Assembly: GCA_947496235.1 (NCBI GenBank)
Contig: CANMCE010000021.1
Coordinates: forward strand, 1-53,542
Length of the DNA stretch: 53,542 nt
Direction: 5' to 3'
Source: an uncultured Glaciecola sp.
GTDB lineage: Bacteria > Pseudomonadota > Gammaproteobacteria > Enterobacterales > Alteromonadaceae
This document shows, piece after piece, positions 7,484 to 30,560 of the stretch; position 1 is the stretch's first letter, and the number at the start of each line of letters is the position of its first letter. The notes beneath the pieces are model-generated. The model was not told where the DNA came from. It saw only the letters and a list, made by a program, of their open reading frames with translations, and did no database searches. The position numbers and the translations under genes were made by a program.

Positions 7484-8089
7484 ATGAAAAAGTTAATATT
7501 TATATTTTTACTCGTAGTGCAAGCAAATGCAGCTTTCGCGTCTGCTCTTATTTATGGTTTTGAAGGTGAGGTCACCTTTACTAATGAAGGACCTAATAAT
7601 AGTTTCAGCATTGGTGATACTGTAAACTACAGTTATTTAATCTCCCTAGATAGAGACGCTGAGTTTTCTCTTGTTGGGGATGCAGTGGTAACTACGTTTT
7701 CAGTTCTAGATGGATTACCAGCCTATTATGCAGAATATCTTGGCGGTGACTTACCCTCAGATCCAGTACAAAACAATATTTTCGAATCCTTTAATTATGG
7801 AAACCACACGCCGGTAGCGTCTGGGTTTTATTCCGCGATACAAACATTCTTGCCAAGCCTCTCATTTTTGTTTCCAACAAATTTTGACAGCACAGTGTAC
7901 GATTGGGATTTTGGAACCGCATTCACCCTTCAAAACATTTGGGTAAATGACAATGGTGAAGAGTTTGCGCTAGAAGCTCAGTTGAATCTTATATCTATTA
8001 GCGTAGTTAATGACGTTAGCGCTAGCGAGTCAGGTGTGCTGTTGTTGTTGGGTTCATTAGCATTGCTTTATGTGAGAAGAAAACGTTAA
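7484..8089 (+). CDS. secreted protein with PEP-CTERM-like C-terminal sorting signal
   Basis: The 201-residue protein has an N-terminal signal peptide (KLIFIFLLVVQANAAFA) and a beta-rich middle low in lysine with no free cysteines. It ends in the three-part tail ASES, then GVLLLLGSLALLYV, then RRKR. That tail of short polar motif, one hydrophobic helix and arginine cluster has the architecture of PEP-CTERM/exosortase substrates, although ES replaces the usual PEP core. Such proteins are cut and anchored by an exosortase and are usually linked to exopolysaccharide loci, which fits the cluster starting 100 bases downstream. No exosortase gene lies in this window. ATG start with AGG upstream. Confidence 0.7.
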   Translation: MKKLIFIFLLVVQANAAFASALIYGFEGEVTFTNEGPNNSFSIGDTVNYSYLISLDRDAEFSLVGDAVVTTFSVLDGLPAYYAEYLGGDLPSDPVQNNIFESFNYGNHTPVASGFYSAIQTFLPSLSFLFPTNFDSTVYDWDFGTAFTLQNIWVNDNGEEFALEAQLNLISISVVNDVSASESGVLLLLGSLALLYVRRKR

Positions 8090-8205: not shown

Positions 8206-9321
8206 TCAGCCATTTCTGATTAGATCATATACCTTTATAGTTTCTTTAGCAGTAGCTTCCCACGTGAATTCCTCTGCTCGTTGATATCCTAAGGTTATCA
8301 TTTCGTCTCGTCTTTGCTTATTACTTGTTATAGTGTTTATTGCAGATGAAATACTTTCATAAGAATATGGATCTACGAGTTCTGCAGCTCCGTTAGCAAT
8401 TTCGGGAAGACAGGAGATATTGGATGTGATTACAGGAAGACCACAAGACATAGCTTCAAGAACAGGAAAGCCGAATCCTTCCCATAAGGTTGGAAACAAG
8501 AATAAATCTGCTGCACTATAGAGTGATATTAAATCTTCATCGCTTACATAACCGAGTTCAATAACATCATTTTCTAGCTTCAAACGGCTTATCGTTTCGT
8601 CGATGCCATGTAAATCCCAAAAGCGCCTTCCTGCTAATACTAATTTGTGTTCACTCTTAGTCTGCTGTTTATAATGATGGAATGCTTCTAGCATTGTCGC
8701 AATATTCTTTCTCGCTTCTAGTTTTCCTACATAAAGCAAATAAGGGCCATCTATCTTAAAAACACGCTTAACGACTTGCTGAGCGGTTTCAATTGGTTGC
8801 TTTGTAAATCGATTCTCAATACCGTGGTATACCACTGAAATTTTCTCAAGTGGAATGTTAAAATACTCAGATGTCGTTTGACGACTGTGCTCGGATATAC
8901 AAATTATGTGCTTTGCCTGTGCTAACCCCCTTTCTATCATTGGGCAAAGACGGCGCCTGATAGCTATGGGATAAAACTGAGGGTGCGTAAAAGGCGATAC
9001 ATCATGCATTGTAAAAATGGAGTCGACCAAAGAAAATGGCGCAGGGATAAATGTGCTGTGATATAGAGATACTCCGGAGAGTGATAAGCTAATAGGCAGT
9101 GAAATCGGCAAACTGATCCAACGCATTGAAGGTCTTAAACGATGAAAAATCAGGTTGTCATATTCTTTACTGAATATAGAAACAGCCTTTTCACTGAAGC
9201 AAAATATATGATACTCGTTGTTTGGGTCGTTTTTTGCAACGTTTTCGACCAACATCTTCTCATAGGTTTCGGGGCCAGCGTCTTGCCGTCCAGCGCATGC
9301 GACGAAGATCCCTGTCTTCAT
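8206..9321 (-). CDS. glycosyltransferase family 4 (GT-B fold)
   Basis: The 371-residue protein has a GT4 C-terminal domain: LLYVGKLEARKNI, the strand HKLVLAGR, the loop ELGYVSDEDLISLYSAADLF and an intact EX7E motif in EGFGFPVLEAM. It resembles MtfB/WbaZ-type mannosyl- or related transferases that build polysaccharide repeat units on the cytoplasmic face of the inner membrane. Its ATG overlaps the stop codon of the upstream fusion gene by four bases (ATGA), indicating translational coupling. It is the last gene of the leftward operon. Donor and acceptor sugars cannot be told from the sequence. Confidence 0.92.
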   Translation of the reverse strand: MKTGIFVACAGRQDAGPETYEKMLVENVAKNDPNNEYHIFCFSEKAVSIFSKEYDNLIFHRLRPSMRWISLPISLPISLSLSGVSLYHSTFIPAPFSLVDSIFTMHDVSPFTHPQFYPIAIRRRLCPMIERGLAQAKHIICISEHSRQTTSEYFNIPLEKISVVYHGIENRFTKQPIETAQQVVKRVFKIDGPYLLYVGKLEARKNIATMLEAFHHYKQQTKSEHKLVLAGRRFWDLHGIDETISRLKLENDVIELGYVSDEDLISLYSAADLFLFPTLWEGFGFPVLEAMSCGLPVITSNISCLPEIANGAAELVDPYSYESISSAINTITSNKQRRDEMITLGYQRAEEFTWEATAKETIKVYDLIRNG

Positions 9322-11273
9322 TTTTCCAATAAACCCCGATACATAGTATTTAATGTTTGAGCTGATTTTTCTAATGAATAATCCTGCTCAATAAACTGAC
9401 GAGCTCTATTTCCTAATGCTGTGGCAAGTTCTGGGTCTGTTACTAGCCGAGATACTGATTTTATAAACTGATCACTAAATCGACTAGCGCCAGCTGCGGG
9501 CACCAAGATACCGTTTACATCATCACGAATAACCTCAGCAATACCTCCTACTGAAGAGGCGACTATAGGCAAACCATTGGCCATGCCGCTGACTATTGCC
9601 ATGGGAACCCCTTCTGCATGGGAAGGATGAACTTGAATATCAGCAGCTTGCATCAAGGAATCAAGCTCACTTGTAAAGCCAATGAAGGTGACATAGTTAG
9701 ATAAATCAAGCTCAGTGCACAGTTTTTTTATGTCATCTTCCAGAGGGCCTCTACCAGGTAGCCATAGGCGTAATTGAGGGAAGAGGGAATGTAGCTTCTT
9801 AAAATTTTGTAAAAGAATGTCGTGACCTTTTTCTGGGTAGAAACGGGATACATTTATTAATACAATATTCTCGTCTGTTGCCCCATACTCTGCTCGTTTT
9901 TTAGTTCTCTCATCTACTGATAGCCATTTTTCTATTGGCGGCATGCCTGCAGGAAGCACTTGGACCTTATTCCTATTTATACCTCTTTTCCAGGTGTTTT
10001 CCATAGTTGTCATGCATTGGGATGTGATTAAATCAAAACGTTTTAACACTTTTTGGTTTATCCACTGAAGCATATTTCGTTTCCATCCAAAATCAGACCA
10101 GACATATAATGAACTCACGCATTTAATACCCAAACGTTTCGCTGATATTAAGCCAACGATGTCAGCGTATGTATTGTGAGTGTGAACTATGTCAGCATTC
10201 GCTGCTTTCAGTATTTTATTTAAACGTCGTGACGCACTGAAAATTGGCTTGCCTCGATGCCAAGGAATAGTTTTGACACTAAAACCGGCTTTTTCAGCTG
10301 CTTCAACAAAAAGTCTTTCGCTATTATCAGGATTTGAAAAACAAACTAGCTGTACATCAATCACTTTTGGATTCAGCGAATGTAACCAATTTAAAACTAT
10401 TGTTTCAACGCCCCCAAAATCAATGGTATGTAGTAAATGAACTACGTTGATTTTTTCGTAAGGCGCTTTTGTTTTGGATGTCGACTCTGTAGATAAAATG
10501 ATGCCAGCAAGAGTAGAATCTAAACTATCTATTGACTTTTTCATGTCTTCTACGTCAGTCTGGCGTAAGAGTCCCTTAGCGCCAACACCAACAACCTGAT
10601 TTACATGTGAAGCCAAAAGCGCAGTCTCAGAATATTCAAGGAATTCTGGTGCTGAAATGATAACACCATCATATTGATGGCTAAGTTCATTAAATAGTCT
10701 TTGTCCACCTCTAGAAAATAGTTGAGCAATGACATGAGCGTCGGTTTTACCAGCAGGCAATAGGTAAAGACCAGCAACAAAGGTCGGCTTAATCGCTTCG
10801 TTAATAGTAAGTTTTGCGGAAACTACATCTGACAGCCCATTCTCATTCTTAATTGCAAAATTCTTATGCAACTGAGGATTTCGACAGTTAGCGTCGATAA
10901 GAAGTACTTTTCCAGATTCTTGAGTGAGTGCCATTGCATGAGCTACTTGACTAGCAACTTCAGCTGAGCCGTGATCTTTCGATACGCCAGTAAACATTAT
11001 GATGCTGCCGTCAGTCTCGAAAGTAGCTCTTAACCGAGCGGCTAATCTAACAGCATCATCATTGAGTTTCAGTTGGTCAAGATTATGGATATCTAAAATA
11101 GTATTTAATTGTTCACGAGATAATTGTCCCTCACGTACAATAAGCTCTCCAAATAGAATGTCCTCGCCATTACTCTTTCTAGATTCTTGTTCCTTTAGGC
11201 GCTGTTTTAATTGATCTTCGGACAAATAGCCAAGCTGCACCATCTTTTTGCCGATATGACTTGCATCATGCAT
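9318..11273 (-). CDS. fusion: MshEN-like domain, degenerate BY-kinase-like ATPase, GT4 glycosyltransferase
   Basis: The 651-residue protein has three parts. Residues 1-70 are helical with MshEN/GspE-N-like phrases (LGYLSEDQL, GELIVREGQLSREQL). Residues about 75-260 match the CpsD/Wzc tyrosine-kinase fold, including VLLIDANCRNPQLHK (Walker A'). However, the P-loop reads GVSKDHGSAE with no GK(S/T), and the Walker B aspartate is replaced (VIISAPE where VIIDTPP is usual). No tyrosine-rich tail follows. Residues about 275-651 form a GT4 domain (HTIDFGGVE, NVSRFYPEKGHD, GRGPLEDDI), in which EX7E reads E554 to S562. Start chosen at ATG 11273, with GAGG 7 bases upstream, over TTG 11279. It sits inside the leftward exopolysaccharide operon. 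The kinase part is probably non-catalytic; the GT part may still work. Confidence 0.85.
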   Translation of the reverse strand: MHDASHIGKKMVQLGYLSEDQLKQRLKEQESRKSNGEDILFGELIVREGQLSREQLNTILDIHNLDQLKLNDDAVRLAARLRATFETDGSIIMFTGVSKDHGSAEVASQVAHAMALTQESGKVLLIDANCRNPQLHKNFAIKNENGLSDVVSAKLTINEAIKPTFVAGLYLLPAGKTDAHVIAQLFSRGGQRLFNELSHQYDGVIISAPEFLEYSETALLASHVNQVVGVGAKGLLRQTDVEDMKKSIDSLDSTLAGIILSTESTSKTKAPYEKINVVHLLHTIDFGGVETIVLNWLHSLNPKVIDVQLVCFSNPDNSERLFVEAAEKAGFSVKTIPWHRGKPIFSASRRLNKILKAANADIVHTHNTYADIVGLISAKRLGIKCVSSLYVWSDFGWKRNMLQWINQKVLKRFDLITSQCMTTMENTWKRGINRNKVQVLPAGMPPIEKWLSVDERTKKRAEYGATDENIVLINVSRFYPEKGHDILLQNFKKLHSLFPQLRLWLPGRGPLEDDIKKLCTELDLSNYVTFIGFTSELDSLMQAADIQVHPSHAEGVPMAIVSGMANGLPIVASSVGGIAEVIRDDVNGILVPAAGASRFSDQFIKSVSRLVTDPELATALGNRARQFIEQDYSLEKSAQTLNTMYRGLLEK

Positions 11274-11314
11274 TTTCAAACCTCAACTTCACTTGTCATT
11301 CATATTGACTATTG

Positions 11315-12982
11315 TTATTCAAAACGTAATCGAGAAATCCATATTTCTCGGCTACCTTTGGCATTTTCTGTAACTGCACCAGCATCAGCAATTGTAATTT
11401 TATTGATTAAATGGACTTCTAACTTACGGTTTTTCGCTTTTGAATTATCTACTACCATGTCATTGATTGAAATCGATATGCTTTTTGATTTTTCGCCGGG
11501 TTGAACTACGGCATAAAAAGCCTCGCCAGTATTTTCTTCTACTTGAAATAGTATTGGACCTGACACATTACTCATAATATCAAATTTGATTACGGACATG
11601 TCTTCCAGTTCGCCTGCTGCTATGGCCTTTGAAAGCCATTGAAAACGTCCTTTTTTGTAATCAAACGACCAATGCATCGCTTTTTGGTCACTAACTGGGT
11701 AGTTTTTTAAGCTCACATTATCTGCACTTGAAGAACTAAATAAATCATTATGTTCGGAAAATCCAATAATTAATTGTTCTGGTTCAGTTTTTGGCGCTTG
11801 GTCCGGAGAAGATGCACCTGAAGATGGAGTCGCTAACATTTCTTGCCAAGTCGACCAGGCAAGCTTTGGTTCTAAATGTTGGTTAAAGAAACCAATATTT
11901 TGCCACAGCAAATATGCGTCGTTATCTACCTTTAAATCTTCAAACAGTTTTTCGTAGTCAACAGTCATAAACCAGACTACAAACAAATAATTATCTTGTT
12001 TAGCAAATTCAACTAAATCTGTTAAATATCTTTGTTGTAGTTTTTCACTTCCATTCATTTTGAGGTCAAAACTTTTAAGCTCAACATTTTGAGAAGAATA
12101 CCCAGTTTCACAAATTGCGATTGGTACTCCCATTTTTTTTGAGTAGTCTCCAAGCCAAGCTAATGGGGTGCGCCATTCTTGAGGGGGAGGGGGTAAAGGG
12201 TCTGCACCAAATTCTTCATGGAAAACGGACATATAAGGATAAAAACTAATGCCTATAAAGTCGCTATTCTTAACAACAGTTTCTACTCTATCTTGTATAG
12301 ATTCATCCATTAATGTTTGCAGACCAAATGAAATGCCGATAGCAAGATTCGGATAGTCCTTTTTAATATTCGAATATACGTGAAGATAAAGGGATTCAAA
12401 GTCGCGCCATCTTCCTGGTTTACGGTGGGCTAATTCTCCAGCTTCCAAACCAATATTTATGTAATCAGGTTTAAAGTATTCAATTGCTCTGCGTACGTAA
12501 TTTAGATAAGCAGTTTTGACATCATCATCGTCAAGATCATTGTTTAAAAAGCTCGAAGAAGTAGAGGAGCCTTCACTTGGTGCTATTAGATTTACTCTGT
12601 CCTCGGCTAAGGGAGCGAGTGCTAGATAAGTAGGTTTTCCCGCTGGTTTGTTTTCTAGATGCTCTCGCCAGCTATCCTGTACTTTTTTAGGATAGGGCCT
12701 GTCATTTAATAACGCTTCTTGCCAAGGAATACCGTTATCTCGCTGGACTACAAATATTTGTCCATTATCGTTTGCTAGTTTAAATGATCGTTTTACTGCT
12801 TTTGGCTCAAATGCGTAAGGAAAAGGAGTAAAACCGAAAAATGGGCTATTTTCTGGAATTATTGGTTTAACATTATTTGAACTTGCAGGTTCCTTGTTCT
12901 CAGTACCTGTGGATGAACAAACGGTTAATGTGAACAAACAACACAAACAAATAATTAAGTAGTGCTTTTTATTTAATAACAT
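11315..12982 (-). CDS. putative glycoside hydrolase-like lipoprotein of the exopolysaccharide operon
   Basis: The 555-residue protein has a signal peptide ending at CLFTLTVC, a lipoprotein-like site although valine before the cysteine is unusual. Residues about 50-385 look like a TIM-barrel glycosidase: YINIGLEAGE offers a candidate acid/base glutamate, and AICETGYSS is typical of a clan GH-A nucleophile strand (GH53/GH113-like). The last 150 residues form a beta-rich domain resembling carbohydrate-binding jelly rolls. By analogy with PslG and similar enzymes in polysaccharide loci it may trim or release the polymer in the periplasm. I place the start at ATG 12982, with AGAG upstream, 10 bases after the previous stop, rather than an upstream TTG. 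Confidence 0.7.
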   Translation of the reverse strand: MLLNKKHYLIICLCCLFTLTVCSSTGTENKEPASSNNVKPIIPENSPFFGFTPFPYAFEPKAVKRSFKLANDNGQIFVVQRDNGIPWQEALLNDRPYPKKVQDSWREHLENKPAGKPTYLALAPLAEDRVNLIAPSEGSSTSSSFLNNDLDDDDVKTAYLNYVRRAIEYFKPDYINIGLEAGELAHRKPGRWRDFESLYLHVYSNIKKDYPNLAIGISFGLQTLMDESIQDRVETVVKNSDFIGISFYPYMSVFHEEFGADPLPPPPQEWRTPLAWLGDYSKKMGVPIAICETGYSSQNVELKSFDLKMNGSEKLQQRYLTDLVEFAKQDNYLFVVWFMTVDYEKLFEDLKVDNDAYLLWQNIGFFNQHLEPKLAWSTWQEMLATPSSGASSPDQAPKTEPEQLIIGFSEHNDLFSSSSADNVSLKNYPVSDQKAMHWSFDYKKGRFQWLSKAIAAGELEDMSVIKFDIMSNVSGPILFQVEENTGEAFYAVVQPGEKSKSISISINDMVVDNSKAKNRKLEVHLINKITIADAGAVTENAKGSREIWISRLRFE

Positions 12983-12992
12983 TTCGGCAACT

Positions 12993-13946
12993 CTATGCGG
13001 CAATCACAAGCTCGTCTATTAATACTTTCAAACCGTCTGATAGATTGAATTTGGGTGACCAACCTATCATAGCCTTAGCTTCAGAAATATCAGAGTAACT
13101 TCTCTGCATCTCTGTTGGACGAATTTTTTGCTGGTTAATAATAATTGAAGTATCGGCTTTCATCATGTCAATAATGGTATTAGCTATAAGCTGAACAGAT
13201 AATTCTTCTGCTCCTGATACATTAATAACACTGCCATGTACAGAATATGCATGTTCTAAAGACAATAAATAAGCGTCAACGGCGTCGTCTATGTAAAGCG
13301 GTGCGCGCGTTTGTAATCCACCATCTAAAGTAATACTTTTATCACCACGTAAAGCACAGTTGATAACAAACTTGATCAGGTTTAGAGGTTGCCTAGCGCC
13401 ATATACTAGCGTGGGTCTAACCGAAACTGCATTAAATCCATGAAGATTTCCAAATAATTTAGCATATTCCCAGCCGGCAATTTTAGAAATTGCATAAGAA
13501 CTGTTTGGTCCAACAGGGGTCTTGCTAGAATATGGTACCGCGTTAGTCCCGTAAACTTTTGCAGAATCTCCGTATACGATTACTTCTGGGTTATTTGATT
13601 TTGTAAAGGCATCTAGTAGATTGATTGTTCCTTGGATATTTACATCAACAGTATCTACGGACTGTTGAAAACCTTCACTAGCGTCTGGCTGCGATGCCAT
13701 ATGAAAAATAATATGGGGATTAAAATCGACCACAGTTTGAGAGATTTTTTCTTGGTCGAGTAGATCACATGGAACAAAATTAATTTGGTCTTTATGAAGA
13801 ATATGATCTAGCTTACCTCGTTTTCGGGAAAGGGCAAGGATATGAGAGTTTGGAATGGATAAATCTGAAAGTAAAGATTCGACTATATGAGATCCAATAA
13901 ATCCACCTGCTCCAGTAATTAAAACTCGCTTATTACTGAGATCCAT
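12993..13946 (-). CDS. NAD-dependent epimerase/dehydratase of the exopolysaccharide operon
   Basis: The 317-residue extended SDR enzyme has the Rossmann motif TGAGGFIGSH, the serine region YGDSAKVYG and the catalytic YAISK. It resembles UDP-glucose 4-epimerase and GDP-sugar dehydratase/reductase families, so it probably makes a nucleotide sugar for the repeat unit. The start is ATG 13946, preceded by a strong AAGGAG at 7 bases; a more upstream TTG lacks such a site. It is the second gene of the leftward operon, after the priming transferase. The precise reaction is not determinable here. Confidence 0.88.
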   Translation of the reverse strand: MDLSNKRVLITGAGGFIGSHIVESLLSDLSIPNSHILALSRKRGKLDHILHKDQINFVPCDLLDQEKISQTVVDFNPHIIFHMASQPDASEGFQQSVDTVDVNIQGTINLLDAFTKSNNPEVIVYGDSAKVYGTNAVPYSSKTPVGPNSSYAISKIAGWEYAKLFGNLHGFNAVSVRPTLVYGARQPLNLIKFVINCALRGDKSITLDGGLQTRAPLYIDDAVDAYLLSLEHAYSVHGSVINVSGAEELSVQLIANTIIDMMKADTSIIINQQKIRPTEMQRSYSDISEAKAMIGWSPKFNLSDGLKVLIDELVIAA

Positions 13947-14070
13947 ACCCTTTCTCCTTAAATACGCTAGGTTGAATGCTCTTCTCAACTGTTGCGAAAC
14001 TACCGTAAATATCTGTAAATGGAAACAAAGTTAAGTTGCAATAATCTTTCTGAAGTTCTACTTAGCCTAA

Positions 14071-14883
14071 TTAAAATGCGCCATGGCGAAATATAACGCC
14101 TTTTACCGTTAATAAAACGATTTTGATGTCAAACATCAATGAGCGCTTTTCAACGTATTCAACGTCAAGGTCAACTGTTTCATAAAAACCTAGTCTTCCT
14201 CTTCCAGAGACTTGTGCTAGGCCTGTTATACCTGGACGCACAGTAAACTTTTTCAACATCTCACCTTTGTAATAAGGGAGCATTTCAGGAATTTCAGGTC
14301 TTGGGCCAACAAGTGCCATCTCACCAGTTAGAAGACACCAGAAATTGGGTAGTTCATCTAAGGTGGATTTTCTCAACCAACGTCCTTGGCGAGTAATACG
14401 AGGATCTTCCTTTACCTTAAAATATAAATCTTGAAGTTCTTTATCGTCATACTTATATGCATACCATTCAGGGAATCTCTCTCTGGCATCAACATACATA
14501 GTGCGAAATTTAGTGAAGCGAAATAACTTAGTTCCTGCACTCACTCGTTTTTGTACGAAGAGCACTGGACCGCGACTGTCGAGTACTATAACTATAGCTA
14601 CGAACAGCATTAGAGGCAAGCCAATTGTAAGTGCAATTAGGGCTACTGTTATTTCAATTAAACGAAGCGCCAACGAGGGCTTTTCGATAGGATAAGGAAA
14701 CGCCTGCTCAGCCTCTTTTTGGGTAGAAATATTTCTACCTTCAAAAACACCCGCTTTCCCAATTGTTTTTTCCAGAGCAACTTCTGAGCCATTACCACTG
14801 TAAGAATTTATGTTTTTTCTTGCTGTATCTACGACACAATCCTGCATTGTATTTTCTGCGCCAATCATTGCCTTCCCATTCAT
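14071..14883 (-). CDS. priming sugar transferase (polyprenyl-phosphate glycosyl-1-phosphate transferase)
   Basis: The 270-residue protein belongs to the bacterial sugar transferase family (PF02397, WcaJ/WbaP C-terminal type). It has one membrane segment (LIALTIGLPLMLFVAIVIV), then GPVLFVQKRVSAG, FRFTKFRTM, STLDELPNFW, LVGPRPEIPEM and RPGITGLAQVSGRG, all strongly conserved in the family. It transfers a sugar-1-phosphate to undecaprenyl phosphate at the inner membrane and so starts repeat-unit synthesis. It is the short form, without the extra N-terminal helices of WcaJ, but carries about 70 residues of polar N-terminal extension. ATG start with AAGGAG 9 bases upstream. It is the first gene of the leftward operon. 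Confidence 0.95.
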   Translation of the reverse strand: MNGKAMIGAENTMQDCVVDTARKNINSYSGNGSEVALEKTIGKAGVFEGRNISTQKEAEQAFPYPIEKPSLALRLIEITVALIALTIGLPLMLFVAIVIVLDSRGPVLFVQKRVSAGTKLFRFTKFRTMYVDARERFPEWYAYKYDDKELQDLYFKVKEDPRITRQGRWLRKSTLDELPNFWCLLTGEMALVGPRPEIPEMLPYYKGEMLKKFTVRPGITGLAQVSGRGRLGFYETVDLDVEYVEKRSLMFDIKIVLLTVKGVIFRHGAF

Positions 14884-15807: not shown

Positions 15808-16536
15808 ATGAAATTATTGAGAACAGCATTTTACGCAGGATTTATACTCATATCTCTTTCTGGTTGCGCCAGCACGGACTATGATGATGTAGAGCGTCCT
15901 GACATCCCAACCAGAGAAATTGCTAATCCATACGTATATAAACTGGGCGTAGGCGATAAATTCAGTGTCAAATTTTTCTACAATCCCGAACTTAACGAAG
16001 AAATCATGATTCGGCCAGATGGTAAAGCATCTTTGCAACTTGCCGGAGATATCGAAATGGCCGGGTTAACTGTAGAAGAATTGCGCCTGAAGTTAACGGA
16101 CCAGTTCACTAGCTTTCTAAAAAATCCAGAAGTTAGCGTTATTGTTCGTGAAATTGAGTCACAGCAAATCTTTGTCGGTGGGGAAGTCGTTAATCCCGGA
16201 ATGTACAAAGCAACTGGAGGGCTATCTCCGCTGCAAGCCATATTTTTGGCCGGTGGCGCTGAGGCGACAGCAGAGCTTAGTACTATAGTAATTTTGCGGG
16301 ATAATGGAGAACCTTTCTTAGACTATTACATTATCGACATGGAAAATAACTTGGGGCAGCCGAATCAATTTCAATATTTTCAGTTGCAAGCCAATGACAT
16401 AGTGTTTGTTCCACAGTCTCGTATAGCATCAATAAATCAATTCGTTGATCAATACATACAAAAAATGTTGCCGATTTTGGGTAATTTAAACTTTAGTGTC
16501 TTTTATGACATTAATGGCGACCGAACGAATTTGTAA
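15808..16536 (+). CDS. Wza-like outer-membrane polysaccharide export lipoprotein
   Basis: The 242-residue protein has a lipoprotein signal with lipobox LSGC (Cys20). It then has the poly_export domain (YKLGVGDKFSVKFFYNPELN, RPDGKASLQLAGDIEMAGLT) and one SLBB-type domain (QQIFVGGEVVNPGMYKATGG, LQAIFLAGG). It is shorter than E. coli Wza (about 380 residues) and lacks the C-terminal amphipathic helix region, as in the short two-domain export proteins of many marine loci. It would form the periplasmic/outer-membrane channel with the Wzz-like protein encoded next. ATG start. It is the first gene of the rightward operon. Confidence 0.92.
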   Translation: MKLLRTAFYAGFILISLSGCASTDYDDVERPDIPTREIANPYVYKLGVGDKFSVKFFYNPELNEEIMIRPDGKASLQLAGDIEMAGLTVEELRLKLTDQFTSFLKNPEVSVIVREIESQQIFVGGEVVNPGMYKATGGLSPLQAIFLAGGAEATAELSTIVILRDNGEPFLDYYIIDMENNLGQPNQFQYFQLQANDIVFVPQSRIASINQFVDQYIQKMLPILGNLNFSVFYDINGDRTNL

Positions 16537-16549
16537 AAGGAAGTTTATT

Positions 16550-18133
16550 GTGGCGTTTTTTGACTATACAGAAAATAACGAATCCTCAATTATTGAAGAT
16601 ATTTTGACCATTGTTCGAAGGAACATCAAATTCATTATAATCACGTTTTTGCTAATTTTAGCGGCTGTTTATGGTTCTTTGTTATACATGACGAACCAAT
16701 ACGAGTCTTATGCTTTGTTAATGGTGCAGCTAGGCAGAGAAAATACTGAAGTACCAATCACTGTTGATAATGGCGGCGTTTTTGCCAGTGGTGTACAAAA
16801 AGAAGAAATCAATTCGTATGTTAACTTGCTCTCTTCTAGAACTCTGATTGAAACGGCCCTTGATGAAATTGGTGAAGAGAGATTTAGTTTTGAGGCACCG
16901 CCACCAGAAACTTTGTTTCAACATTTAAAGTATTATGTGAAATCGGCGGCCAAGTGGAGTAAAACCCAACTAGAAGAAGGTCTTATACTTACCGGCCTTA
17001 AAAACAGAATGTCTGAACGCGCTAAAATCATTACCCTAATTGAGCGCTCGTTAAGTGTAGCCCGTGAACGAGATTCAAATATCATAAGAATTTCCCTACG
17101 ACTACCAGACCCTGCGCTGGCTCAGTTGACCATTCAAACCTTAATAGACAAATACCACGAAAAACACGTTTCAATTCGCCAAACTAATAATATCCAAGCT
17201 GCCTTTAATGACCAGAGCTTAGTTTACAAAGACCAATTGATGAATAAACGGAATGAAATCATATCCATTATGAATACTTGGAATATTACTTCTGTGGAAG
17301 AACAGCGTGCGGAATTAATTAAGAATGTGCATAAAACAAAATATGCCATGAGTGAAAAAGAAACACTAAAACAAGAATTGATAACCAAAAGACCTATTAT
17401 CTTACAGCAAATTGAGCAAGAGCCGTCAGTGCGAAAAGAAGCGGAAGTTTTTAACAACGGCAGTGAAGAAGCCATTCGAGAAGAATTAGCAAAACTTAGA
17501 ATTCGGCAAATCAATGCTCAAAATAGATATAGCCAAAACTCAAAAATGCTAGAAATTATCAACGAAGAAATACAAGAAATGGAACAATTGCTATCAAATG
17601 AACGAGAGCAACAATCTACCAGTGTAACATTTCAACCAAATCCAAGAGCTGAAAACTTAAGAAATCAAATTAAAGAAATTGATTCCAAAGTAGCAGGGCT
17701 TAATGCTGCTATTCAACAGGATCTGAATAATATTAAACGTTTTGAAGATGAAATAAGACGTCTCGATCAGGGCAGTAATTTGCTTACTGTAGCTGAGTTA
17801 GAATACTCGGTACTTGAAACGAAATACCTCTCAAGTGCATCACGTTTAGAACAAGCAAAAATTGCTTTGGCCCTTGATGCCGCTCAAATAGCTAATATTT
17901 CCACAGTGGCAGCAGCCAATTTGCCTACAGTACCTGTTGCTCCCAAACGTCTTCTATTGCTAGTGATTGGCGCTGTGGTTGCTTTAATTGCAGGCGTTGG
18001 ACTAGCGCTTTTACGTGAATGGTTGAGTGATATTGTGCATGAAGAGCGAGACATCATATCTTTAGATGGGGTTAAATTTTTAGGGCATTTTGAAAAAGCG
18101 ACAGCGAGCAATTCGGTAGCAAATATAAGTTGA
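16550..18133 (+). CDS. Wzz/GumC-like chain-length co-polymerase, no kinase domain
   Basis: The 527-residue protein has an N-terminal membrane helix (FIIITFLLILAAVYGSLLYM), a Wzz domain with ESYALLMVQLG, a long periplasmic coiled coil (about residues 200-420) and a C-terminal helix (LLLVIGAVVALIAGVGLALL) followed by a short cytoplasmic tail. This is the PCP-2a/GumC layout without the C-terminal tyrosine kinase. It controls chain length and contacts Wza. I choose the GTG at 16550 as start because AGGAAG lies 6 bases upstream; GTG 16496 and ATG 16511 would overlap the preceding gene and lack a site. The kinase partner would have to be elsewhere, or be the degenerate domain fused to a GT at 9318-11273. 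Confidence 0.9.
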   Translation: MAFFDYTENNESSIIEDILTIVRRNIKFIIITFLLILAAVYGSLLYMTNQYESYALLMVQLGRENTEVPITVDNGGVFASGVQKEEINSYVNLLSSRTLIETALDEIGEERFSFEAPPPETLFQHLKYYVKSAAKWSKTQLEEGLILTGLKNRMSERAKIITLIERSLSVARERDSNIIRISLRLPDPALAQLTIQTLIDKYHEKHVSIRQTNNIQAAFNDQSLVYKDQLMNKRNEIISIMNTWNITSVEEQRAELIKNVHKTKYAMSEKETLKQELITKRPIILQQIEQEPSVRKEAEVFNNGSEEAIREELAKLRIRQINAQNRYSQNSKMLEIINEEIQEMEQLLSNEREQQSTSVTFQPNPRAENLRNQIKEIDSKVAGLNAAIQQDLNNIKRFEDEIRRLDQGSNLLTVAELEYSVLETKYLSSASRLEQAKIALALDAAQIANISTVAAANLPTVPVAPKRLLLLVIGAVVALIAGVGLALLREWLSDIVHEERDIISLDGVKFLGHFEKATASNSVANIS

Positions 18134-18177
18134 CCGATATAGCCACTATTGTTAGCAAGAGATTTGACGGTGATAAC

Positions 18178-21100
18178 ATGACAACTAACCCAATCAAAAA
18201 GACAATGTTAAGAGGCTTCCAAAGAATATTTATAGGTGTTTTTTGTGCTATTTTGCCGGCTTATTCCTGCTTCGCTCAAGATGCTAAGTGGCAACCAATA
18301 GGTCCGCGAGCTGCCACTGTTATTAGTATGGAACGGTCACTAGTAAGTCCAAACATCGTCTATGCTGGTACCTATTTTGGTGGCTTATATAAAAGTGTAG
18401 ATGGTGGGATTAGTTGGGCTCATCTTGAATCATCACTTTCAAATAAGGCTGTTTTCGCAATAGAAACTGATCCTTTAAACCTCACCACTTTATACGCAGG
18501 CACCTTTGAACATGGAATTTATAAATCTTTAGATCAAGGTGAATCTTGGGAGTCGATAAATAATGGTCTAACAGATCTTTCTATTCAAGACATTTTATTA
18601 ATTCCGGGGCTTCAAAGAGTCTTAGCTGCCACAGAAGAGGGCGTGTTTTATTCAGACGATGGCGGCAATTCCTGGACTAAAGCAAGTGCAGAGCAAGACA
18701 GGCTTTATGGCAAAACGCTGATTCAGGATGCAACGGATTCTGATACCATTTACTTGGGGACTAGTGGCTTTGGACTCTTCAAAAGTACTGATAACGGTGC
18801 AGTTTGGACTCGTATTACAAACGGCCTTTCAGATGCCATCGTTAATAGCCTTACACATAATCAAAGTGGCGAGATAGTCGCTGCAACTCAGAAAGGCGTT
18901 TTTAAAATAGCGCCTTCTGAATTAATAACCAATACCGGTAGTTGGACGGATATTAGTCATAATTTATTAGACGTACCTGTATTTGATTTATTAACTGTAA
19001 GCAACGATAACACTATTGCTGCAACCCAAGATGGTATCTATCAATTTAATGGTGATAATGCTTGGGAATTGTGGGATACATTCCCCGCGCGTTTGTTATT
19101 CGGTACTCCTGGTGGTGAAATGATCCATGTTGCAGGCGCTTTAGATATCATGGAGCTTACCGGCGACATGGGAGCCAACTTTTTCAGTGTTGATAAAGGA
19201 TTACAGAACCGATTTGTAGGGGCTCTTCACACTGTAAAAGTATTTGATTGGACAGTTATTTTTGCAGGCACGGACAAGGGGGTAGAATTAACCTCTGAAT
19301 TTTTTAGCTTTGAAGGAGAGCTGCCTTGGTTATTGACTCGTGAGTTTAGCGGAGCCGTATTTGACCTGATTTCACACCCAATAATGGCAGATATTATTTA
19401 TGCTGGCGCTGAAAGAACTGGCGTATGGAAATCCACAGGTTTTGGTTCCGAATGGATGCAAAAATCAAAAGGCATGGTGCCCACGCTGATTAATGATATT
19501 GCGCAAACCGCAGGTGAGAATCCGATTCTTTATACTGCGACTAGCTCGGGCGTTTATATTAGTCGAGATAATGGAACCACTTGGCGCACCTACAGTGACA
19601 CTGCAACGCCTCGACATGCAACAACTGTTGCACTAAATACAGCAACTGATTTAGTTGCGTATTACGGAACAGAAGCAGGGGAAATATATTCTACTTTTGA
19701 TGGTGGAGAATCATTCTTTCTACGTTGGCCCGGCAATGGTAAACCAATAAAAGATATTGCTGTTGCGCCTTTTTATAATATTTACGCAATCACATCAGAC
19801 GGGCAAGTACTTTCATCATCGGATGGGGGTAGTAACTTTTTCCCATTAGAAGCAGCAGCCGGTTTTAATGCGACGCAAATCGTAATTGATCCCATTATGC
19901 CTTGGGTTGCTTATCTTTCAACTGCGGATAATGGAATATTTAAAACCACCACTAGGGGCTTAGAGTGGGAAGAAATCAATACAGGTGTAGATATTCCATA
20001 TATTTTTTCCATAGATATTGATTCTGAAGATCCAGATTTACTCTATGCGGGGACGGTAGATGGCTTATTTAAAACTACTGACGGTGGGACAAACTGGGTA
20101 TATTTGAATGAGGGCCTGCCAGAGGGGTTTGTCAATCGTGTAAAAATATCACCATCAGATAGCAAAGTAATATACGCCAACATAGACGAAACAAGCGTTT
20201 ATAAAAGCAGTGATGGCGGTCAAAACTGGGAAATCCATTATGAAAGTGATGAAAATTCCATTGCATTACCGATTCTACCAGATCGATCAAATCTCGATAC
20301 TATTTATCTAGGTGATTACCAAACAGGATTGAAAAAGACTATCGATGATGGGGAAAGTTGGACCAACATAAATGACGGCTTGACTCTTTTCGTTAGAACT
20401 TTAGCTACCACGCCTTTGGAACCAGATACCTTATATGCTGGCTCGTTGTCTGCAGGTATTTTTAAATCTACTGATGCAGCCGAAACTTGGTCACCTATGG
20501 GACTTCAAGAACGCAATATATTTAAAGTGTTAGTTGATCCCAGCGACAGCAATACCGTTTATGCAGGTACTTCCTTAGGTCTTACAAGATCAACTAATGG
20601 CGGTTTAGATTGGCAAGATTTAGGACAAAAATTGGATTTTGTGTTCCAAGTTCAGGTTGATAATACTGACCCTGATATAATTTACCTCACAGGCCTAGCT
20701 GGTTTCATTTCAAAAAGTACAGACGGAGGCCAAAGCTGGCGCCTGCTAGAAACTGATCTTCCTAATGCAAACATTCTTGCGATTGCCCAAGATCCAGTTA
20801 GCGGTGCTATTTACGTAGCACCAGAGCGTGAGGGGATATATAAAAGTGAAGATGGTGGTGAAACTTGGACCGCTACCAATAATAGTTTATATGGAGACCA
20901 AGTTACAACAATAGTGATAGACGATAATAGTAATATTTATGTTGGTACCCAGAAAAAAGGAATTTTTGTCAGTACAAATCAAGGACAAGAATGGATACAA
21001 CAAGATATTACAGATACTGATGAAGAAATTTATATTTCGTCTATTTCCGTGATGAGTGCGACTACTGAAACAAATACTCATATCTTTGCCTCGATTTTAA

Positions 21101-21930
21101 ATGACAACGAAAATAGCCTAAAGGTTGTAGCGACAGAAGCAGGAAGCTCTGAGTGGAAGAATGTCAGTAATGGTATTGTTGAAGTCGGCATCAGTTCAAT
21201 AAGTAGTGGTGCAAATCCATCGCAGTTATATGCTATCGCCTCGAGTCCAGCTGTTGTCTATGAAAGCCTAGATAATGGTGAATCATGGGAACCCATTGTC
21301 ACTTTAGATGTTAGTTCAAACTTAAGTAAAATCTTAACCGATCCAAAAAATCAGCAGCAATTATATGTGTTTACCAACAACGACGGGTTAATTGTAAGTT
21401 CTGACGGAGGAAACTCTTGGTTTGAAGCTACCTCACTTGAATCCAATAATATCAATCAATTAATACTGACCGACGAAGGACAATTATTAGCTGCAACTCT
21501 CGGGCAAGGTCTTGTGATTAGTGATGATCAGGGAGTGTCATGGAGTGGCGGTGCCAATACTGGCATCATATATTCTTCAATATTAGGTATTGCAGTTAAT
21601 CCAAGTAATTCGAATCAAATTTTTCTCGCAACAGGTGGTACAGGAATTCACCGCAGTAATGACGCCGGAGTTGGTTGGGACGCCGTAAACAACGGACTCG
21701 GCGATTTGAAAATCCTGTCATTACTCATGGATCCAATCGATCCGCGAATTCTCTATGCTGCTACAGCAGAAAGCGGCGTTTTTGTTACCCATGACAGTGG
21801 AGATAATTGGACACCGTTAAATAATGGGCTTTTCAACAAAACTATCACTTCCTTAAGTATCGACCCCAATGACAACACTATTATCTATGCGGGCACTGAG
21901 GGTGGTGGGGTATTTAGAATTACACAATGA
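18178..21930 (+). CDS. giant secreted Asp-box (BNR/sortilin-like) beta-propeller protein
   Basis: This protein of about 1250 residues has a signal peptide (IFIGVFCAILPAYSCFA, then QDAKW). I count about 22 Asp-box repeats of the form SxDxGxxW (for example SVDGGISW, SSDGGQNW, STDGGQSW, THDSGDNW), usually followed within tens of residues by LYAGT-like strands. This predicts two to three tandem beta-propellers of the VPS10/Ycf48/BNR type filling the whole protein. No anchor, catalytic motif or sorting tail is visible, so it is probably periplasmic or secreted. The gene lies between wzz- and wzy-like genes and its stop overlaps the next ATG (ATGA). Start: ATG 18178 is preferred; TTG 18130 overlaps the previous stop. 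A carbohydrate-binding or scaffold role is inference. Confidence 0.85.
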   Translation: MTTNPIKKTMLRGFQRIFIGVFCAILPAYSCFAQDAKWQPIGPRAATVISMERSLVSPNIVYAGTYFGGLYKSVDGGISWAHLESSLSNKAVFAIETDPLNLTTLYAGTFEHGIYKSLDQGESWESINNGLTDLSIQDILLIPGLQRVLAATEEGVFYSDDGGNSWTKASAEQDRLYGKTLIQDATDSDTIYLGTSGFGLFKSTDNGAVWTRITNGLSDAIVNSLTHNQSGEIVAATQKGVFKIAPSELITNTGSWTDISHNLLDVPVFDLLTVSNDNTIAATQDGIYQFNGDNAWELWDTFPARLLFGTPGGEMIHVAGALDIMELTGDMGANFFSVDKGLQNRFVGALHTVKVFDWTVIFAGTDKGVELTSEFFSFEGELPWLLTREFSGAVFDLISHPIMADIIYAGAERTGVWKSTGFGSEWMQKSKGMVPTLINDIAQTAGENPILYTATSSGVYISRDNGTTWRTYSDTATPRHATTVALNTATDLVAYYGTEAGEIYSTFDGGESFFLRWPGNGKPIKDIAVAPFYNIYAITSDGQVLSSSDGGSNFFPLEAAAGFNATQIVIDPIMPWVAYLSTADNGIFKTTTRGLEWEEINTGVDIPYIFSIDIDSEDPDLLYAGTVDGLFKTTDGGTNWVYLNEGLPEGFVNRVKISPSDSKVIYANIDETSVYKSSDGGQNWEIHYESDENSIALPILPDRSNLDTIYLGDYQTGLKKTIDDGESWTNINDGLTLFVRTLATTPLEPDTLYAGSLSAGIFKSTDAAETWSPMGLQERNIFKVLVDPSDSNTVYAGTSLGLTRSTNGGLDWQDLGQKLDFVFQVQVDNTDPDIIYLTGLAGFISKSTDGGQSWRLLETDLPNANILAIAQDPVSGAIYVAPEREGIYKSEDGGETWTATNNSLYGDQVTTIVIDDNSNIYVGTQKKGIFVSTNQGQEWIQQDITDTDEEIYISSISVMSATTETNTHIFASILNDNENSLKVVATEAGSSEWKNVSNGIVEVGISSISSGANPSQLYAIASSPAVVYESLDNGESWEPIVTLDVSSNLSKILTDPKNQQQLYVFTNNDGLIVSSDGGNSWFEATSLESNNINQLILTDEGQLLAATLGQGLVISDDQGVSWSGGANTGIIYSSILGIAVNPSNSNQIFLATGGTGIHRSNDAGVGWDAVNNGLGDLKILSLLMDPIDPRILYAATAESGVFVTHDSGDNWTPLNNGLFNKTITSLSIDPNDNTIIYAGTEGGGVFRITQ

Positions 21931-23468
21931 AAACCTCAGAAGCGAATTTTCATCCCATCACAACTGCCTTTTGGTATTGGCCGGTTGCGGTATTAATAGG
22001 GATTGCTATCGCTTATATAGGAGCTCAATTCTCTCCAATGCTAGCCCTAGCTGCCGGCATAGGAGTATGCGGCGGGATGATACTTTTACGTTATCCTGAG
22101 TTGGGCTTATTAATTACAGTAGCCATCATTCCAATTGAGCGCTTTGGTCGTTTTACTGACGATAATACAGAATTCACTATTTCATTAATGAGAATAATCG
22201 GGATTGCGACACTTGGGGTGTTAGTTATACACAAACTAACGCGCAAAAAGCAGTTCACCATTGATAAAACGCTGTTTTTATACGGTGCTTATGCATTTCT
22301 GGCAATTCTCTCCGTGACATATACAACCGATACGCTAGGAACTGTGCGGGCGGCGTCTTCTATCATTGCTAACCTCATGTTCTTATTTGTTCTAATAAAT
22401 CTTACTACTCATAAGAAATTAGTGTTTCAATCTTTATTAATATGGTTGGCCGTTTCAGTCGCTATTGCGGTTTACAGTACCTATGATTGGCATCTAGGTT
22501 CAGGCCAAGATGCAGCCTTATTTATGAGCGGTGATGATGATCCGGGTAAAGGCGTTCAGACCACTGAAAATAGGTGGTCTACCATCTGGGTTGATAAAGC
22601 TGAGTTGGAGACTTTAGGAGGTTTGAGTTTGCGTCGGACAATGGGATCAACGTCTCATTCCGCTGTTTATGGTATAAACCTTATTATGACGCTTCCGTTC
22701 TTTTTGTTTCTCTTAAGATACTCAAAAAATCGCCTTACCAGTATGATTTTGTGGGGTTCACTAGCCGTAATTTGCTACAACATTCTGCTAACCAATACGC
22801 GAGCAACTATATTGTTAGCAATGGGAGTAGCTGGACTTTGCGTGTTTAAAGGGCTGCATCGAGTTACACTTGGCCAAGTAGGACTTGGGCTGGTGGGGTG
22901 TATCGCGTTAATACTGGTATTACCTGAAGATATTTTCAATCGGATCTTGGATATTTCCAATTATAGCTTCGAGAATTCTGCATCTCTGCAAATTAGATTA
23001 GAGTACATATATGCAGGAACAAACGCATTTTTAGACAACTGGTTATTTGGCTTAGGCGTGTCTAATGAAAACATCATTCCGGACTACATTAATAGTTGGT
23101 CTAATGCCCCAGAAAAAACTACGGCACATAATATTTACTTGCAAACTCTCATGGAGCTTGGCATTTTAGGATTTGCCTGTCTTTTTGGATTTGCAGCTCT
23201 TTTGCTTCGTTACAGTATTGTGGCAGCAAGAAACTTTCGCGCACATCCAGATATGCAACAGGAATATTGGTTTATGGTAAGCACTCAAATCACAATGATA
23301 GCAGTGCTAATTTATGGTCTTCAGGTTGACGTTTTTCATTTCCCACTGAAGGGATGGTGGATGTTAGCTGGGTTTACTATATTGATGTACCATTATAGCA
23401 AGCGTCTAAAGACGCCTAGCACAGACGCGTTCTCATTTAATGAACAAACAAAAAGGGAGTTGGAGTGA
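21927..23468 (+). CDS. Wzy-like polymerase / O-antigen ligase family membrane protein
   Basis: The 513-residue protein has about ten to twelve membrane helices and the Wzy_C/O-antigen ligase signature. It includes a large periplasmic loop (about residues 185-240) ending in RRTMGSTSHSAVYG, then NTRATILLA, and AHNIYLQTLMELGILGF near the C-terminus. In a locus with Wzx and Wzz it is most likely the polymerase that joins repeat units on the periplasmic side. Its ATG overlaps the preceding stop (ATGA), and its own stop overlaps the next ATG by one base, so translation is tightly coupled along the operon. Confidence 0.9.
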   Translation: MKTSEANFHPITTAFWYWPVAVLIGIAIAYIGAQFSPMLALAAGIGVCGGMILLRYPELGLLITVAIIPIERFGRFTDDNTEFTISLMRIIGIATLGVLVIHKLTRKKQFTIDKTLFLYGAYAFLAILSVTYTTDTLGTVRAASSIIANLMFLFVLINLTTHKKLVFQSLLIWLAVSVAIAVYSTYDWHLGSGQDAALFMSGDDDPGKGVQTTENRWSTIWVDKAELETLGGLSLRRTMGSTSHSAVYGINLIMTLPFFLFLLRYSKNRLTSMILWGSLAVICYNILLTNTRATILLAMGVAGLCVFKGLHRVTLGQVGLGLVGCIALILVLPEDIFNRILDISNYSFENSASLQIRLEYIYAGTNAFLDNWLFGLGVSNENIIPDYINSWSNAPEKTTAHNIYLQTLMELGILGFACLFGFAALLLRYSIVAARNFRAHPDMQQEYWFMVSTQITMIAVLIYGLQVDVFHFPLKGWWMLAGFTILMYHYSKRLKTPSTDAFSFNEQTKRELE

Positions 23469-25329: not shown

Positions 25330-26616
25330 ATGAGCGCTGCAGGTGAAGTGAAAACTGCAGGTAAAAAACAAATAGTAAAAGAGTTTAGCCTTGTTACTTT
25401 TGCCAAAGTGCTAGCCCTTGGTTCGCTTTTTGTTTGTGGTGTTTTTATTGCAAGATTTATTGGTCCCGTTGAATTTGGGTTTTATTCAGCGGCTTTGTCT
25501 TTCATAATCTTGTTTGATGCCATTATCGGTCAACCTCTTGATAATGCCGTGATTCGTTTTAGTTCACATCACTCGCAATGGAGAGAGCGGACAGAAAAAA
25601 TTCAAGGATATGTGTTGCGCATCAAGTTGTGCGTTGGATTTGCACTTTGCGCTATTGCATTCTTGTACCTCGATGAACTGACCACTTTGATGTTTGATCA
25701 ATCCGCCAGCATCAATCTACTTATCTCAGTGATGGGGTGTGGTATTATTTTGCTGATTGTTCGAAGTTCAGCTTGTTACTTTCAAATTAATCAACTGTTT
25801 GCAGAATATGCTAAGTTTGACGGTTTGCAAGGGCTTCTCCGTTTGGTATTTGTGGGGGTGTTCATTCTTTTAGGCGTACAATCAGCTTCCTTCTATGTAG
25901 CCATTTATGGTTTAGGCTCCCTTTGCGCCTTTGTAGTTTTTTTTACTTTGATAAAGCAGAATTTTTATTTTGCAAAAACGCCAGATAAAAACGACAAGCG
26001 AAAAATTATGTCATACATTGGCGTTACCTCCTTTATCGTTGTCTTAAGTACAATTACGGGTAAAGCTGATATTCCGATACTCTCAACTATGGGCACTGCC
26101 GAGGAAACCGGGCATTATTCAGCCGCTATGCAAATAGCCATGATTGGAACCCTTATGGCGTCATATATGGCGGTCGTTTTCTATCCAAAAGTTGTTGAAA
26201 TGGCGAAGCAGGGCACGCTAGCAGGTATGATTAAACTGAACCTATGGTCCGCATTAGCTATTTCAGTTTTTTGCGTACCAGTGGCAATTTACTTAGTTCC
26301 TTTGGTTCTTCCTTTGATCTTTGGAGAACAGTTTCAGCCTAGCATTCTTATTCTTCAGATTTTATTTGTGGGCATTTGTGCCGACTTTGTTGTGATGCCT
26401 ATTCTACTGCCATTCGCTCTTCAGCAAACTGCCAATAAAATACTTGTCGGGGAAATTGTTATTACCTTACTCTTCTTTATTGGGATTTTCACAATTCCAT
26501 CTCTTGATGCCTTAAAAATGGCATTATTGGTCAGTGGAATAAGAGTGTTGAAAATGAGTTTATATTTATCAGTGACGGTTCACTTTTTAGTTCATAACAA
26601 GAAAAGTGAGACCTAA
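25330..26616 (+). CDS. Wzx-like polysaccharide flippase
   Basis: The 428-residue protein is almost entirely membrane helices (about twelve) and begins with FSLVTFAKVLALGSLFVCGVFIARFIGPVEFGFYS. The K/R-F-IGP-EFG-Y pattern is typical of polysaccharide transporters of the MOP superfamily (PST/Wzx). It would flip lipid-linked repeats across the inner membrane for polymerisation. The ATG follows the preceding TAA with no gap. It is the last gene of the rightward operon; a convergent DUF1080 gene follows 66 bases later. Confidence 0.9.
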   Translation: MSAAGEVKTAGKKQIVKEFSLVTFAKVLALGSLFVCGVFIARFIGPVEFGFYSAALSFIILFDAIIGQPLDNAVIRFSSHHSQWRERTEKIQGYVLRIKLCVGFALCAIAFLYLDELTTLMFDQSASINLLISVMGCGIILLIVRSSACYFQINQLFAEYAKFDGLQGLLRLVFVGVFILLGVQSASFYVAIYGLGSLCAFVVFFTLIKQNFYFAKTPDKNDKRKIMSYIGVTSFIVVLSTITGKADIPILSTMGTAEETGHYSAAMQIAMIGTLMASYMAVVFYPKVVEMAKQGTLAGMIKLNLWSALAISVFCVPVAIYLVPLVLPLIFGEQFQPSILILQILFVGICADFVVMPILLPFALQQTANKILVGEIVITLLFFIGIFTIPSLDALKMALLVSGIRVLKMSLYLSVTVHFLVHNKKSET

Positions 26617-29843: not shown

Positions 29844-30560
29844 ATGATACCACGTCGTGTCAGTCGTCATGTTAAGGAACAAAACTGGTTTGCAGTTTTT
29901 CTCGACCTAGTGGTAGTCGTAGTCGGTATTTTTATCGCGCTACAGGTGTCTCAATGGCATAACGACAGTGAACAACGTGCGGAAAGAATTTATCTTCTTG
30001 AGAAGCTCGCTGAGGATATCAATAATACATTAGAAGAGCACAAGGAAACCATTGAAGCCTTTGATGCGGTAAGGGAGGATTTTACTGTTCTAATTAGTAT
30101 GCTCTCTAAAAAACCAACGGATGATAACGCGCATGAAAGGTTTTTTAAAGCGTACAATGTAATTTTTAACACCTACGATACAACCTTTGAGAGTCCTACC
30201 TTTGAGTATATTTTGAATTCAGGTAATTTAGATTATTTAGGTAGGATCGAAACGCAAAATCAGTTTTTAAAACTCAATAGTGCTAATCTGGAAAATAACT
30301 TCCAGACAGAAATATTAAACCAGTTATTAGCGCCTATTATTGTCAACGTAATGGCCAAAATTGTGGTTCCCGAACAAGTTAACGACATTCAAATAGGAAG
30401 TAGTTTAAATGACGTTTATGAATTTCCTGAACTACTTGGTCATACAGTCACTATTCGAAATGTCGCTTATATACAACGGGGACAAATAGATAATATTGAT
30501 ACAGTTTTAAACAATCTGTTAGTTGCCGTAAATGAAGAATTAGCTATGCTACAAGAGTAA
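29844..30560 (+). CDS. DUF6090-like membrane-anchored protein
   Basis: The 238-residue protein begins with MIPRRVSRHVKEQNW and one membrane helix (FLDLVVVVVGIFIALQVSQW), then a long acidic helical region. The basic N-terminus, the VVGI-IALQ helix and the W-N/H pair match the DUF6090 group, as in the protein at 1905-2678, but the rest is not visibly similar. It is probably anchored in the inner membrane by its N-terminus. ATG start with AGGAAG upstream. A small membrane protein gene follows 19 bases downstream and is likely cotranscribed. Function unknown. Confidence 0.75.
   Translation: MIPRRVSRHVKEQNWFAVFLDLVVVVVGIFIALQVSQWHNDSEQRAERIYLLEKLAEDINNTLEEHKETIEAFDAVREDFTVLISMLSKKPTDDNAHERFFKAYNVIFNTYDTTFESPTFEYILNSGNLDYLGRIETQNQFLKLNSANLENNFQTEILNQLLAPIIVNVMAKIVVPEQVNDIQIGSSLNDVYEFPELLGHTVTIRNVAYIQRGQIDNIDTVLNNLLVAVNEELAMLQE

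Follow-up and report, generated by a model that had tools for sequence, protein, structure and literature searches.

Bacterial tyrosine kinases (BYKs) that have lost their catalytic residues are already described as partners of Wzz-family polysaccharide co-polymerases (PCPs) that lack a kinase. EcpK of Myxococcus xanthus and HfsB of Caulobacter crescentus are stand-alone BY pseudokinases, with a BYK fold without Walker motifs or a tyrosine tail, and are reported to serve the kinase-less PCP-2 proteins EpsV and HfsA, respectively, in Wzx/Wzy pathways (PMC12004946). Docking of the pseudokinase on the PCP was shown by experiment for EcpK/EpsV; EcpK lacks α1, β1 and α2, and the tail of EpsV replaces α1/β1 of the kinase (PMC12004946). 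The same report mentions that BY pseudokinase variants joined to the PCP itself had been noted earlier. Here we describe a gene of an uncultured Glaciecola sp. that encodes a tandem MshEN_N-like domain, a BYK fold and a family 4 glycosyltransferase (GT4) in one chain. It is encoded on the minus strand of a 53,542-nucleotide stretch of contig CANMCE010000021.1 (the window), in the same cluster as a kinase-less PCP gene (16496-18133, plus strand). As in the EcpK and HfsB systems, a BY pseudokinase would be paired with a kinase-less PCP-2, and, as for EcpK, the pseudokinase gene does not adjoin the PCP gene. Unlike EcpK and HfsB, the pseudokinase of the window is located between an MshEN_N-like domain and a GT4, and its interaction with the PCP is inferred, whereas that of EcpK is experimental (PMC12004946).

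The fusion gene (9318-11279) is a single intact open reading frame (ORF) of 653 residues when counted from a TTG at 11279, the count used for all residue numbers below. Because GAGG lies seven bases upstream of an ATG at 11273, this ATG, which would give a protein of 651 residues, appears to be the likelier start. The first-pass annotation, made from the sequence letters, had read one frame ending at 11273, the position of this ATG, and had joined in it an MshEN-like helical domain, a CpsD/Wzc-type fold and a GT4. This three-part arrangement was confirmed, with the MshEN_N-like tandem motif at residues 8-65 (11085-11258), the BYK-like domain at residues ~74-275 (10455-11060) and the GT4 at residues 278-653 (9321-10448). 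The G+C content at third codon positions was even across the three parts (0.320, 0.295 and 0.307), and no in-frame ATG, GTG or TTG was found at the GT junction (codons 251-300); on these sequence grounds a false join of two genes was rejected.

The kinase part (residues 86-275) gave significant matches to TIGR03018, the XrtA-associated tyrosine autokinase, and to TIGR01007, although both scores (90.0 and 78.7 bits) were below the cut-offs of the models (230.65 and 108.05). Chains of Wzc, Etk and CapB were matched in a phmmer search of the PDB. In the AlphaFold model, residues 91-260 were predicted at pLDDT 89-97 with a BYK fold, and Foldseek aligned the kinase-part model with VpsO (TM 0.81-0.84 by target length) and Wzc. 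Structure prediction, which the first-pass annotation had proposed as a check, thus returned a fold that is still that of a BYK; in a second structure model the kinase part was poor, since the underlying alignment held glycosyltransferases (GTs) only.

While the fold is retained, the catalytic residues are not. The P-loop Lys is replaced by S105 and the P-loop Ser/Thr by A106, D129 is the only Asp left in Walker A' (the second is N131), and the Walker B Asp is replaced by S209. The kinase part has no C-terminal tyrosine cluster; its tyrosines are at positions 172, 203, 216 and 274, and the GT stands in the place of the cluster. The first-pass annotation had recorded the loss of the P-loop Lys, of the Walker B Asp and of the tyrosine cluster correctly, but its statement that Walker A' was kept did not hold. 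Each of 13 kinases fetched purely by similarity had all four catalytic positions intact. The Lys, the Ser/Thr, the second Walker A' Asp and the Walker B Asp were intact in 91, 92, 92 and 92 members, respectively, of a set of 92 kinases that came mostly from a motif-based scan and is biased towards intact motifs. Compared with active BY-kinases of the Wzc/CapB type, the fusion therefore lacks Walker A, the DxD of Walker A', the Walker B Asp and the tyrosine cluster. Compared with BY pseudokinases that serve a kinase-less PCP-2, it has the fold without the catalytic motifs and the kinase-less PCP-2, but it is not a stand-alone protein. From sequence and model, the kinase part is a BYK fold without catalytic residues, that is, a predicted BY pseudokinase. 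TIGR03018 is the closest kinase family by score and has an intact member in the same genome; the fusion differs from it in its score, far below the cut-off, in the loss of the catalytic residues and the tyrosine tail, and in the attached GT. An ordinary XrtA kinase was rejected on the score and the missing catalytic residues. Another candidate for impaired kinase activity was seen in Budvicia diplopodorum, where a Wzc-type protein (locus L114, 3426-5591, plus strand) has GNS for GKS in Walker A.

Residues 278-651 were assigned to GT4 by PF00534 (E 2.2e-37), and PF13439 also matched. The model of this part showed the two-domain GT-B fold, the family profiles agreed, and Foldseek retrieved GT4 enzymes such as HepE. 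The EX7E motif reads E556 ... S564, so that the first Glu is kept and the second is Ser, as the first-pass annotation had noted. The second position was Glu in 10 and Gln in one of 11 comparison GTs. A modelling preprint on GumH places the first EX7E Glu by the anomeric carbon, with the second contacting mainly ribose (PMC13104830); if that model applies, S564 need not kill the enzyme. A GT scan of viral contigs confirmed none of 47 pattern matches.

The N-terminus (residues 8-65) holds two copies of the MshEN_N-type motif. A profile of 27 relatives (of 30 fetched loci, our motif filter excluded 3) gave residues 1-90 a score of 28.9 bits; the highest score among 10,000 shuffles was 15.2. Over the ORFs of the window the fusion scored 22.1 bits and the next-best ORF 3.4. 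A point score for the tandem motif reached 22 of 26 and was equaled by none of 20,000 shuffles, with a scoring scheme devised after the sequence was seen. Four helices were predicted in both structure models (6-15, 21-36, 43-49 and 55-69 in the AlphaFold model), and a BLAST comparison with MshE of the same genome gave 30% identity. Neither the Pfam model MshEN nor an earlier profile of ours gave a signal in the fusion N-terminus; the former matches, and the latter was built on, the subdomain after the tandem motif. The described MshEN receptor of cyclic di-GMP (c-di-GMP) has two 24-residue motifs separated by a 5-residue spacer and contacts the ligand through Arg and Gln (PMC5013675). In the fusion, the four motif glycines are all present, as are the first Gln and the key hydrophobic residues; the two Arg are replaced by His8 and Leu42, the second Gln is replaced by His65, and the spacer is 10 residues long. 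XpsE, which has several such changes, is reported no longer to bind c-di-GMP (PMC5013675). Given these replacements and the longer spacer, the fusion may or may not bind c-di-GMP; the MshEN_N-like part may tune docking through c-di-GMP, or may be a mere binding or oligomerization module.

The proposed partner is a Wzz/PCP-2-like co-polymerase (16496-18133, plus strand; PF02706 and PF13807, TIGR03007 below cut-off). The genome holds three PF02706 proteins. One (on C4) is a Wzc with its own kinase, and another (on C3) is an XrtA-type PCP whose gene is immediately followed by that of an intact kinase carrying a Tyr-rich tail, the TIGR03018-type member mentioned above. The window PCP is the only one of the three without an intact kinase of its own, in agreement with the first-pass annotation, which had described a Wzz-like protein without a kinase and had advised a check of the genome for another intact BY-kinase; two were found, each with its own PCP. 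A TIGR01007 search of the genome placed only the C3 and C4 kinases above the cut-off, with the fusion third (81.8 bits) and four weaker matches behind it. The window PCP ends 39 residues past its second membrane helix. A profile of the stretch from the second membrane helix to the kinase, built from 48 Wzc-type proteins, aligned with the last 110 residues of the PCP, to 11 residues from its end; helix and tail together scored 35.6 bits, and none of 5,000 shuffles scored above 12.3. In its model the pseudokinase has no strand ahead of helix 74-87 and begins at the helix after the Wzc-type lead-in stretch. Because the C-terminus of the PCP aligns with the pre-kinase stretch of Wzc and the pseudokinase starts after that stretch, the two proteins look, in sequence and model, like a split Wzc of the same kind as EcpK/EpsV.

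We propose, with somewhat more confidence than doubt, that the fusion is a BY pseudokinase scaffold which tethers its built-in repeat-unit GT4 to the polymerization and export complex. The proposal starts from what was observed: a single gene encodes all parts, the kinase fold has lost its catalytic residues, the C-terminal part has a GT4 fold, and the sole kinase-less Wzz-family protein of the genome is encoded in the same cluster. By analogy with EcpK/EpsV, the pseudokinase would bind the cytoplasmic C-tail of the PCP. The tail would supply the α1/β1 piece that the pseudokinase is without, as reported for CapA-CapB and EpsV-EcpK, and assembly and disassembly of the PCP ring would be aided by binding and release rather than by phosphorylation. 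Being part of the same polypeptide as the pseudokinase, the GT4 would be kept at the membrane beside the PCP, Wzy and Wzx, and the repeat-unit sugar would be added where units are flipped and polymerized. The docking idea has precedent, since EcpK/EpsV and HfsB/HfsA are reported to work with kinase-less PCPs without phosphorylation (PMC12004946), and contact between a PCP and a GT has been reported for the separate proteins PssP2 and PssC by two-hybrid assay (PMC4182512), as has BYK control of a sugar transferase for CapAB and CapM (PMC6441080). The gene order BYK then GT4, seen in some of the loci described below, also speaks for the proposal. The first-pass interpretation, in which the pseudokinase may dock the GT to the Wzz complex and so link sugar addition to export without phosphorylation, was supported in part: a pseudokinase, a kinase-less PCP and phosphorylation-free docking all agree with the findings, and the docking half is not new. 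A more elaborate form, in which a c-di-GMP-responsive MshEN_N module governs binding of the dead kinase to the PCP tail and thus GT placement at the complex, seems to us quite doubtful; if it were true, second-messenger signaling would be tied to ring assembly and to sugar addition with no phosphorylation involved.

Several points weigh against the scaffold proposal. PCP binding by the fusion, its GT activity and a link between sugar addition and export are predictions, and GT activity is not certain with the second EX7E Glu lost. The membrane helix, which shuffling destroys, gives much of the 35.6 bits, a score which is therefore not one of the PCP tail by itself, and the tail by itself is not proven homologous. 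The fusion and the PCP sit in facing operons, and the genomes searched gave no orthologue of the fusion, hence no gauge of its conservation. Alternatively, the pseudokinase may have decayed into a linker.

This last possibility amounts to a vestige: an MshEN-kinase gene would have joined with the GT4 gene downstream of it, the decaying kinase half would now serve as no more than a linker, and all of the work would fall to the GT4. We consider it rather unlikely. Damage to all three Walker motifs and the lack of an orthologue that would show conservation agree with decay, as does the frequent adjacency of kinase and GT4 genes (in 8 of the 80 loci described below). However, the whole frame is open with even codon use, the losses fall on catalytic residues while the kinase fold is still confidently predicted, and a kinase-less PCP is present. 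The same damage and the missing tyrosine cluster argue against a kinase that is active, or still binds nucleotide, through an unusual site, although CapB1 of Staphylococcus aureus, once suggested to be a pseudokinase, is reported to have proved active (PMC6441080). Together with a false assembly join, for which it can be said that the single frame is known from the assembly alone, and against which the even codon use and the missing start codon at the join stand, this explanation is highly improbable.

Alternatively, the fusion may be a c-di-GMP effector first, in which the MshEN_N-like domain binds c-di-GMP, the dead kinase relays the signal and the GT4 is switched on, with PCP docking secondary or absent. 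The tandem motif, well above shuffles, with its expected helices and its kept glycines, first Gln and hydrophobic positions, is consistent with this view, and in NfrB of Escherichia coli an MshEN domain is reported to switch on a GT (PMC8669469). The explanation nevertheless seems unlikely, given the changes at both Arg, the second Gln and the spacer, of the kind that go with lost binding in XpsE (PMC5013675), and it leaves the BYK fold beside a kinase-less PCP unexplained.

A search for the same three-part architecture elsewhere, which the first-pass annotation had suggested, found no second fusion in the genomes and plasmids searched. The search covered 1,221 overlapping genome draws, plasmids and one GTDB-wide scan. 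Outside its own genome, the full-length fusion was found in none of 59 relatives among the matches listed, by E-value, and in 0 of 393, 0 of 368 and 0 of 397 genomes drawn from the order, class and phylum, respectively, where the top three candidates per genome were scored; the E-value was passed in two genomes of the class, by matches confined to the GT. Among 1,802 plasmid records with matches, there was none in which a single region spanned 80% of the query. The GTDB-wide contig scan with a single sequence confirmed none of 19 pattern matches, and since its reach is close relatives, distant fusions are not excluded. A second scan, with active kinases in the alignment, gave at least 80 loci; it detects frames with one or more intact kinase motifs, and most pseudokinases would escape it. 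Two fused-looking frames of 709 (L018) and 742 residues (L022) were rejected as separate genes. No GT was found in 14 kinase frames (12 of 371-1,050 residues and two of 349) among the matches listed from 274 genomes, and in these frames the kinase lies at most 36 residues from the C-terminal end. Among 102 kinase frames in fetched loci, duplicates included, a GT was present only in two copies of the fusion itself. The GT4 fusion and the MshEN_N-like N-terminus were thus seen in no other genome searched. A BYK gene lies directly before a same-strand GT4 gene in 8 of the 80 loci listed, which were fetched by kinase similarity (four Paraburkholderia, two Pseudomonas, one Staphylococcus and one Pseudoduganella), and loss of a stop codon could therefore yield such a fusion.

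The fusion is the fourth of five closely spaced minus-strand genes. Ahead of it are an initiating sugar-phosphate transferase (14071-14883; PF02397, E 7.1e-57), an NAD-dependent sugar epimerase/dehydratase (12993-13988; PF01370, E 1.8e-45) and a 562-residue protein (11315-13003) with no Pfam or NCBIfam match and no convincing PDB sequence match (best E 0.42). The fifth gene encodes a second GT4 (8206-9321; PF00534, E 3.2e-35), and its ATG overlaps the stop codon of the fusion by 4 bases. The facing genes encode a Wza-like polysaccharide export protein (15808-16536, plus strand; PF02563, TIGR03027 below cut-off), the Wzz-like PCP, a BNR-repeat protein, a Wzy/O-antigen-ligase-type polymerase (21927-23468, plus strand; PF04932, E 1.1e-20), a GT2, a methyltransferase and a Wzx-type flippase (25330-26616, plus strand; PF01943, E 5.1e-16). 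By gene content, this is a predicted Wzx/Wzy-type exopolysaccharide cluster. Its G+C content is close to that of the flanks. At a threshold of E 1e-20, the window PCP was without a match in the 245 other family genomes searched, and the cluster may for this reason be a recent arrival.

The BNR-repeat protein, directly after the co-polymerase (18130-21930, plus strand), has 1,266 residues, is rich in sortilin/BNR repeats (PF15902, E 7.7e-64, 10 stretches) and is unusual in an export operon. The cluster is flanked on either side by weak DUF6090 matches below cut-off (1905-2678, E 6e-5; 29844-30560, E 5e-4; both plus strand). A small secreted-looking protein (7484-8089, plus strand) has a C-terminal hydrophobic stretch and an RRKR end that look PEP-CTERM-like by eye, and no PEP-CTERM model matched it. 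Further along the plus strand, a 384-residue protein (33215-34369) matched a ClpP-related phage head maturation protease with 32.7 bits, below the cut-off of 120, and a glycosyl hydrolase family 62 protein (37460-38494; PF03664, E 8.9e-60) lies ~11 kb past the cluster.

Parts of this arrangement have described counterparts. NfrB of E. coli likewise has a GT and an MshEN-type domain in one chain, with MshEN control of the GT reported (PMC8669469); the fusion differs in its GT4, in its N-terminal, degenerate motif and in having no predicted membrane helix. In S. aureus, the BYK/PCP pair CapAB acts on CapM, a sugar transferase of its own pathway, but the proteins are separate, control is by tyrosine phosphorylation, and CapM is a priming transferase (PMC6441080). 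BY pseudokinases serving kinase-less PCPs are already published, and what appears to be new here is the covalent GT4 and the MshEN_N-like N-terminus. Titles and abstract openings of open-licence PubMed Central articles described no fusion of a BYK or pseudo-BYK with a glycosyltransferase or with MshEN, which is weak evidence of absence.

To our knowledge, much has yet to be learned about the way in which Wzx/Wzy pathways coordinate repeat-unit synthesis in the cytoplasm with flipping, polymerization and export. A GT naturally and covalently joined to the kinase-like partner of a PCP would argue that both meet in the cell, and would offer a single-gene handle on that coordination. If the scaffold proposal is true, it would extend the phosphorylation-independent PCP class represented by EcpK/EpsV, with a pseudokinase able to carry cargo.
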